DNA from: Prevotellaceae bacterium | GTDB taxonomy: Bacteria; Bacteroidota; Bacteroidia; Bacteroidales; Paludibacteraceae | Assembly: GCA_031271005.1 (NCBI GenBank) | Contig: JAISWT010000171.1 | Span: forward strand, 1 to 34,182 | DNA: 34,182 nt | Direction of reading: 5' to 3' | Shown here: positions 10,729 to 11,395 of the stretch, piece after piece | Numbering within the stretch: position 1 is the stretch's first letter | Layout: each line of letters begins with the position of its first letter | Position numbers and translations under genes: made by a program | Notes under the pieces: generated by a model | What the model saw: the letters and a program-made list of their open reading frames with translations, nothing else | Databases searched by the model: none | What the model was told of the DNA's origin: nothing

Positions 10729-11082
10729 TTGTCAGTAGTTGTTAGTTATTAGAGTTTAGAGTTTAGAGTTTAGAGTTTAGAGTTTAGTTAGGAGTGGTTA
10801 GGTATTGAATTGAGAATGGAGAATGGAGAATTGAGAATGGAGAATGGCGCACAAATAATGATGAACGCAGGTAGGGGCGCACCTATGTGTGTGCCCTGAT
10901 AATATAAATAATTGAGAATTGAATAGGGTTAGGAATAGTTAGAAACTTTAATCAATTAGCAATTAGCAATTAGCAATTAGCAAATCGTAATTCTCAATTC
11001 TCAATTCTCAATTCAAAAACATTTCTTCATTAACCACTAATCACTAATCACTAATCACTAATCACTATTTTTATTCTTCTTT
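10729..11082 (+). repeat. Ordered heptamer module A
   Basis: From left to right: CAGTTGT-type unit, TTTAGAG array, a TTAGGAGTGGTTAGG linker, AATTGAG units, a GGGCGCAC/GTGTGCCC hairpin (10875-10896), TTAGGAATAGTTAGAAAC, CAATTAG array, CTCAATT array, CAAAAACATTTCTTCATT, and an AATCACT array. The same order returns in the other modules. No coding region is visible. Confidence 0.85.
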
Positions 11083-11222
11083 ATTTCACAGAGTAACATA
11101 GAGAAAACACAGAGAGACACAGAGATTTTTTACAACTAAAAAAACTACCGCTTTGTCGGGATAAATATTGCGCTCTTTGCGGTGAAATTGTTTTTACCGC
11201 AAAGAGCACAGGAAAATAAAGT
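11083..11222 (+). repeat. ~140-bp CACAGAG/hairpin element, copy 1
   Basis: Starts with CACAGAG-type words, passes through CTACCGCTTTGTCGGGA and contains a perfect 12-bp stem, GCTCTTTGCGGT (11172-11183) with ACCGCAAAGAGC (11196-11207), loop of 12. It matches 31012-31152 with only a few differences. No convincing open frame lies in it. Confidence 0.85.
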
Positions 11223-11395
11223 TGTCAGTTGTCAGTTGTCAGTTATTAGAGTTTAGAGTTTAGAGTTTAGTTAGGAATAGGTAGAAACTTTAATCAATTA
11301 GCAATTAGCAAATCGTAATTCTCAATTCTCAATTCTCAATTCTCAATTCAAAAACATTTCTTCATTTCTTAATTTCTTCATTCCTTCATTGTCAT
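11223..11395 (+). repeat. Ordered heptamer module B
   Basis: Second module to the right of the element: CAGTTGT units, TTTAGAG array, TTAGGAATAGGTAGAAAC, CAATTAG units, CTCAATT array, CAAAAACATTTCTTCATT and CATTTCTT octamers. Two minus-strand -7-like boxes (11418-11425 and near 11466) follow before grpE, but no gene fits them. Confidence 0.85.

Follow-up and report, generated by a model that had tools for sequence, protein, structure and literature searches.

Several intergenic gaps of one contig from a Prevotellaceae bacterium are filled with tandem heptamers of different sequence that follow each other in a common order, which raises the question of what these units are and how neighbouring arrays of unlike sequence came to be arranged in this way. 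In cyanobacteria, heptamer repeats were recognised decades ago. The window analysed here is the whole stretch of 34,182 nt, which is contig 149 of a host genome of 2.80 Mb (245 contigs, 95% complete).

Composites of the window and their order across the host genome

According to the preliminary description, at least six gaps of the window hold the same repeat families in almost the same left-to-right order and on one strand, and direct reading of the six confirmed this arrangement. Composite 1 (10729–11082, forward strand) begins with a CAGTT-type start and a TTTAGAG array (10749–10792), the left arm with a G-rich top strand. These are followed by the L linker TTAGGAGTGGTTAG (10788–10801), a nested insert without assigned strand (10803–10928), a second L linker TTAGGAATAGTTAG together with the T linker AAACTTTAATCAATTAG (10929–10959) and four copies of CAATTAG (10953–10980). 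The right arm, C-rich on the top strand, starts with a CTCAATT array (10993–11013), continues with the F linker TTCAAAAACATTTCTT (11012–11027) and ends in an outer CACTAAT/AACCACT part, in which CATTAACCACT precedes the CACTAAT repeats (11028–11067); all parts were read directly on the forward strand. The insert consists of GAGAATG/GAATTGAG repeats and the palindromic stretch GTAGGGGCGCACCTATGTGTGTGCCC (10855–10905), and BLAST of its 80-base core against the host genome found related pieces on at least seven other contigs.

The other five composites also lie on the forward strand. Composite 2 (11223–11395) runs from CAGTTGT through TTTAGAG, a linker, CAATTAG, CTCAATT and the F linker to CATTTCTT/CATTCCTT, and it is separated from composite 1 by the 134-base spacer X (11086–11219), a second copy of which (31015–31149) lies between composites 4 and 5 with 94.9% identity. 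Spacer X, to which no strand is assigned, is made of CACAGAG-type and CCGCAAAGAGCACAGG-type repeats, and partial relatives of it occur in the host genome. Composite 3 (14943–15215) has no CTCAATT array, no CAAAAACATTTCTT linker and no F linker, and the stop codon of the gene at 13659–14957 lies in its left array. Composite 4 (30817–31010) follows immediately on a ruvA-type gene (30222–30812), and composite 5 (31153–31396) ends 2 bases ahead of the end of an M3-peptidase gene (31398–33518). Composite 6 (33594–33716) is reduced to a linker, a CTCAATT array, the F linker, CATTTCTT and AACCACT, without a CAGTT or TTTAGAG array. The order is kept in all six gaps, but no single gap contains every family. 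Further arrays of the window lie at about 2736–2908, 6511 and 8625–8660, and a forward-strand cluster of CAGTT, GTTAGTG, TTGCTAA, TTCACTA and CTCAATT (26827–27078) is absent from the preliminary description.

In the host genome, 0.82 Mb out of 2.80 Mb was analysed for arrays with a minimum of three copies. Period 7 accounts for 238 of them, compared with 0–45 arrays for each of the other tandem periods from 2 to 30 and 141 single-base runs. The main families are CTCAATT, TTTAGAG, CAATTAG, AACCACT, CACTATT, GCTATCT and the CAGTT types. With ORFs called by a simple greedy method, 234 of the 238 arrays are outside ORFs in sequence that is 82% coding; the flanking genes point in mixed directions, composites occur in all gene configurations, and in 19 host cases a stop codon is inside an array. 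An array lies within 250 bases of 20 of the 126 contig ends, as against 7% of random windows. Such an excess is expected where a repeat breaks the assembly, so the true number of composites in the host is probably above the count.

The tabulation of linkers, order and strand that the preliminary description proposed for the whole genome was carried out on 57 composites, each with at least two core families. Core-element pairs agree with one order in 314 cases and disagree in 11 (0.966), while 1000 within-composite shuffles gave a mean agreement of 0.50 and a maximum of 0.637, and 205 of 211 markers share the strand of their composite. The intergenic repeat grammar is real. Of the 24 genomic copies of the exact F linker TTCAAAAACATTTCTT, 11 are forward and 13 are reverse, and the array near 6511 is opposite in orientation to the six window composites; the uniform orientation noted before is thus true of the six copies but not a rule. 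Within contigs there are 50 same-strand and 38 opposite-strand pairs (p = 0.17), and an orientation linked to replication or to the contig was rejected because this clustering is not significant.

When the linker loci are aligned, they stay in register. They start on the left with CAGTTnT, GTTAGTG or TTAGCAA arrays and then TTTAGAG, continue with TTAGGAnTnGTTAG, AAACTTTAATCAATTAG, CAATTAG, (TAATTCG) plus AATTGAATATAATT, CTCAATT and the linker TTCAAAAACATTTCTT, and end with CATTTCTT/CATTCCTT and then AACCACT or TTGCTAA/CTGCTAT arrays. The outermost families differ between sites at both ends, and the core is constant. Each array varies its own copy number: in the 24 linker-bearing composites TTTAGAG has 0–5 copies, CAATTAG 0–7 and CTCAATT 1–5, and over all families the range is 0 to 11, so the earlier statement that copy number changes under a fixed order and fixed linkers is borne out. 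The shared order, strand and linkers support copying in blocks, and the core block TTTAGAG, TTAGGAnTnGTTAG, AAACTTTAATCAATTAG, TAATTCG, AATTGAATATAATT, CTCAATT, CAAAAACATTTCTT has been copied as a unit to dozens of places between genes within a single lineage. In having a 7-base tandem unit in several copies (238 arrays), mainly intergenic and dispersed over many contigs, the host repeats are STRRs; the typical, though not strictly defining, state of a single heptamer without fixed multi-family order does not apply to them, and the 314:11 core order makes the host units a composite variant of STRR.

Spread within one lineage and change at the arrays

The F linker has no copy in two congeners as against 24 in the host, and TTAGAGTTTAGAGTTTAG has no match in the same two congeners as against 347. 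Among 199 relatives, single stray matches to the F linker occur in a few, and the eight that were examined all lie outside heptamer arrays. CTCAATTCTCAATTCTCAATT matches the host 298 times; of 395 further genomes from the phylum, 5 have one match apiece, which lies in a single short array. Over 1.1 Mb of a congener only 6 arrays of period 7 occur, while the 0.82 Mb of the host has 238. Arrays are absent from orthologous sites in the congener or in related contigs, and the only orthologous gap with kept gene order is 84 bases long in the congener but 234 bases long in the host, the composite being the difference. Synteny between host and congener is otherwise almost gone, too little of it for a link between composites and rearrangement breakpoints to show (p = 0.24). 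Two congeners without the composite and 199 relatives with stray linker matches only point to a recent, lineage-specific expansion in the host. The earlier proposal that an ancestral composite spread and then grew or shrank family by family is supported by the order, strand and linkers shared by 57 composites, by their freely varying copy numbers and by their absence from the congeners.

Changes at the arrays can be seen directly. Several pairs of contigs from the same site with near-identical flanks differ by 28, 63, 42 and 35 bases, all multiples of 7, and other pairs do not. IMG/VR contigs vary in whether they contain a small gene cassette with CAGTTAT-type arrays on either side (L604, L581 and L599 against L608; L638 against L596), and the contigs that lack the cassette retain one array. 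The gain and loss of cassettes between flanking arrays show that heptamer arrays act as homology for recombination and cassette exchange, which would explain how the ordered core is copied. Neither the comparison of L020 with G001 nor the IMG/VR pairs, which together offer few clean empty sites, revealed a target-site duplication. Three phage-like IMG/VR contigs (L400, L355 and L381) have TTTTTAG arrays exactly between a stop codon and the following gene's ribosome-binding site; their relatives have neither the array nor the gene.

G/C polarity of neighbouring arrays

The preliminary description did not mention that the G/C strand asymmetry of the composites changes sign between the left half and the right half. 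The mean GC skew of the 24 linker-bearing composites is about +0.4 on the left and about −1.0 to −0.5 on the right; the G-rich strand is the top strand in arrays left of the centre and the bottom strand in those to its right. For counting, each array was given a sign, G-rich or C-rich, according to its top strand, and neighbours of opposite sign within 150 bases were scored. The orders G-first/C-second and C-first/G-second are each their own reverse complement, so that equal classes are expected if there is no rule. In the host the ratio of G-first to C-first pairs is 54:3, over 25 and 3 kinds of family pair, respectively. Because the host composites are copies of each other, independent data were needed.

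The same polarity is found in neighbouring heptamer arrays of many unrelated bacteria. In GTDB species genomes, where heptamer arrays with a TTAG core were sought in cyanobacteria, Bacteroidota, Planctomycetes and others, the ratio was 32:1 among the matches listed. IMG/VR contigs gave 23:3 for TTAG, 36:6 for GGGAG and 5:1 for TTATCA, and 12 cyanobacterial genomes gave 5:1. With identical junctions removed, the outside sets sum to 101:12, the GTDB part again among the matches listed; these sets were picked by heptamer motifs, which cannot favour an order yet sample only part of the arrays, and pairs that come from the same genome are only partly independent. The excess is gone beyond about 400 bp. 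The control periods 5, 6, 8, 9 and 10 have too few neighbouring pairs for a comparison, and plasmids of Nostoc and Kovacikia are nearly without arrays. Many units share a TTAG core. In two cyanobacterial genomes (G599 and G602), arrays of GATTNNN, the backward control pattern, outnumber those of TTAGNNN, so this core is common rather than universal.

Several simple causes of the polarity could be rejected. Whether the nearest gene presents its 3' or its 5' end, the G-rich strand leads away from it, and GTDB pairs among the matches listed occur in ++, --, +- and -+ gene contexts, which speaks against gene direction or the stop codon as the main cause. The polarity is not a general trait of intergenic DNA, since such skew was not found in array-free intergenic gaps, and it is not a general G-quadruplex effect, since most units have single Gs. 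Nor is it a plain inverted repeat: among the matches listed, the two arms of GTDB pairs are as unlike as shuffled partners save for a slight excess. The arms of IMG/VR pairs are somewhat more alike than chance, and inverted copying may contribute there.

In most array gaps the arrays are of a single sign. There the array lies toward the side that the rule predicts in a ratio of 57:17 in GTDB (among the matches listed) and 46:14 in the host, and the neighbouring sequence has a raised lag-7 signal, which hints at a decayed second arm; the C-rich skew expected on the array-free side is weak or absent. An off-centre array in such gaps is unexpected under simple one-ended random healing, save where a degenerate second arm goes undetected.

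Origin of the arrays and comparison with known systems

What needs explanation is a geometry in which the G-rich strand of each arm has its 3' end at the centre of the gap. The simplest process that brings the G-rich 3' ends of both arms together is extension of 3' ends from the two sides of a break, followed by joining. We therefore favour, at close to even confidence, the reading that the gaps hold a two-armed, non-coding, STRR-like unit built by break-end extension, spread by templating and varied by slippage. Its parts differ in strength. That the heptamer repeats were copied as a composite and varied by slippage is well supported; that the arrays grew by 3'-end extension at the two sides of a break is probable, and here we infer the process from the geometry. 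A DNA break would arise between genes, both 3' ends would be extended with G-biased heptamers, and the two extended ends would be joined; at later breaks, existing composites may serve as template or homology, by which the ordered core would spread, and slippage in steps of 7 bases would alter the array lengths. The presence of about ten heptamers in one species is contrary to a single fixed template. In the 95%-complete host genome no end-extending enzyme was found, and Ku-type end joining was rejected, since the genome has no Ku.

A serious alternative, to which we give a smaller but substantial probability, is that the arrays are ordinary STRRs in which slippage and recombination spread an early composite with no break-end chemistry, the polarity having another cause such as intergenic selection. 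Length differences in multiples of 7 between near-identical contigs and the cassettes gained or lost between flanking arrays speak for this explanation, and slippage has already been proposed for heptamers (Mrazek 2007, as cited in PMC4679880 and PMC4692102). Slippage alone, however, leads one to expect no strand relation between neighbouring arrays of different sequence, yet the GTDB ratio among the matches listed is almost wholly one-sided, and stop-codon or transcription effects do not supply the relation either, because the rule holds at gene 5' ends and between genes of the same direction.

It is unlikely that the units are a selected bidirectional device, whether it acts as a terminator or stem-loop, through G-quadruplexes, or as Chi-like sites turned toward a break at the centre. 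The attraction of the idea is that the polarity is unchanged by reverse complementation, so that a transcription or DNA-processing enzyme arriving from either side would meet one order; Chi sites, moreover, are G-rich and strand-specific. The convergent GGGAATC pairs of Xanthomonas are mostly transcribed, and G-quadruplex or stem-loop roles have been favoured for them (PMC4692102). Most arms here, however, have single Gs (TTAGTTA, TTTAGAG, TTAGCAA), which makes G-quadruplex formation impossible, GTDB arms among the matches listed are hardly complementary, the composites occur whatever the configuration of the genes, and no Rfam family reached the gathering threshold anywhere in the window.

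It is improbable that the units are non-autonomous mobile elements (MITE or REPIN type) with heptamer arrays inside them: a fixed core in dozens of dispersed copies in one species, with none in the congeners, would suit such elements, but the composites lack their constant termini, usually terminal inverted repeats, the outer families vary at both ends, the arms are largely non-complementary, no partner transposase was noticed, and no target-site duplication was seen at the sites examined, few of which have a clean empty counterpart. Most improbable of all is a telomerase-like reverse transcriptase of the DRT10/UG17 kind that would copy an RNA template into heptamers on broken ends; DRT10 is a telomerase-related maker of tandem-repeat cDNA (PMC12632851) and the arms have the geometry of two fused telomeres with many TTAG-core units, but several unrelated heptamers per genome would require several templates, and the sole detectable reverse transcriptase of the host fits the phage family phrog_1423 far better than UG17/DRT10 (405 against 108 bits), which leaves such a source a lead only. 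DRT10 systems combine a UG17-class enzyme with an ncRNA and a SLATT gene, and the host enzyme lies instead beside phage lysis genes; its locus (L037 1–2354, G000:C21) is a prophage piece with adjoining holin-like and endolysin genes.

Returning to break-end extension, one may ask how far it reaches. It is conceivable, though we regard it as doubtful, that heptamer arrays across many bacteria are scars of a break repair that adds G-biased heptamers to both 3' ends before joining, the host composites being scars re-used as templates; by analogy, such a pathway would correspond in bacteria to the healing and fusion of telomeres. If arrays did arise from the 3' ends of breaks, they would be a fossil record of bacterial break repair and would point to an end-extending activity. 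The polarity rule would be important if it were confirmed and tied to break repair. Over several phyla and many heptamers, the polarity is a strong constraint on the origin of the arrays that can be checked in any genome, and, taken singly, slippage, selection on stop codons, the direction of transcription, G-quadruplexes and inverted repeats all fail to predict it. The host composite is a good case for such work because it must have spread recently. Overall, the interpretation given in the preliminary description is partly supported and holds in its main part.

In eukaryotes, fused telomeres are interstitial TTAGGG/CCCTAA arrays with the G-rich 3' strands head to head. The composites resemble them in that the G-rich 3' strands of two tandem arrays meet in this manner, and they differ in having many heptamer sequences in one genome; the likeness is one of geometry, and neither telomerase nor a linear chromosome is part of it. 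In Nostoc, Elhai and co-workers in 2008 are said to have found small dispersed repeats (SDRs), elements of 21–27 bases with a defined fold, nested in tandem heptamers. The host linkers, known from sequence alone, are likewise short dispersed elements nested among tandem heptamers.

Among known systems, the units are close to the heptanucleotide STRRs of cyanobacteria and to the TAACTGA repeats that Beggiatoaceae, cyanobacteria and some Bacteroidetes carry. MacGregor 2015 (PMC4679880) describes 7-base, intergenic, multi-locus arrays with mixed families, 7-base indels and a patchy distribution, and the CAGTTAT family of the host is the same heptamer on the opposite strand with a shifted start. 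In the host, the families keep a fixed order in a composite that recurs dozens of times with its linkers conserved, and there is a G/C strand polarity that the parts of MacGregor 2015 considered here do not mention. The same paper reports mixed heptamer assemblages in Microcystis and Elizabethkingia, the latter with near-identical intergenic regions that contain larger assemblages. In Tychonema/Microcoleus, a two-armed stretch (L197 5367–5463) matches many places in G601, G602, G604 and G605, its own and three related genomes, at 79–98%, some matches spanning both arms (for example 94% over query 662–765), with part of the matching due to shared low-complexity sequence; it is possibly a second ordered composite. 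Because this stretch recurs at many sites, dispersed composites are probably not confined to the host, and the earlier suggestion that an ordered multi-family composite departs from known heptamers could not be upheld in view of it and of the Microcystis and Elizabethkingia assemblages.

The polarity itself has a precedent in the GGGNATC repeats of Xanthomonas and Nostoc, which form close convergent pairs of the same polarity as here, 70–75 per genome in Xanthomonas and few in Nostoc PCC 7120 (Rehm et al. 2015, PMC4692102). In Xanthomonas the G-rich repeats are sense near stop codons and antisense ahead of start codons (PMC4692102), and the arrays studied here likewise pair convergently with the G-strand sense after the stop and antisense before the start. 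The GGGNATC system is a single G-tract heptamer per genus and has been read as a G-quadruplex or stem-loop structural element. Unlike it, the host units (TTTAGAG, TTAGCAA, CAGTTAT) have single Gs in place of tracts of at least three, and the polarity spans many heptamers without G-tracts in several phyla, with largely non-complementary GTDB arms among the matches listed. A statement of a general polarity or of a strict multi-family grammar was not found in the open-licence papers searched. Convergent pairs as such are known from Xanthomonas (PMC4692102); what appears to be new is their generality, that is, the extent of the polarity and its independence of sequence, together with the strict multi-family grammar of the host lineage.
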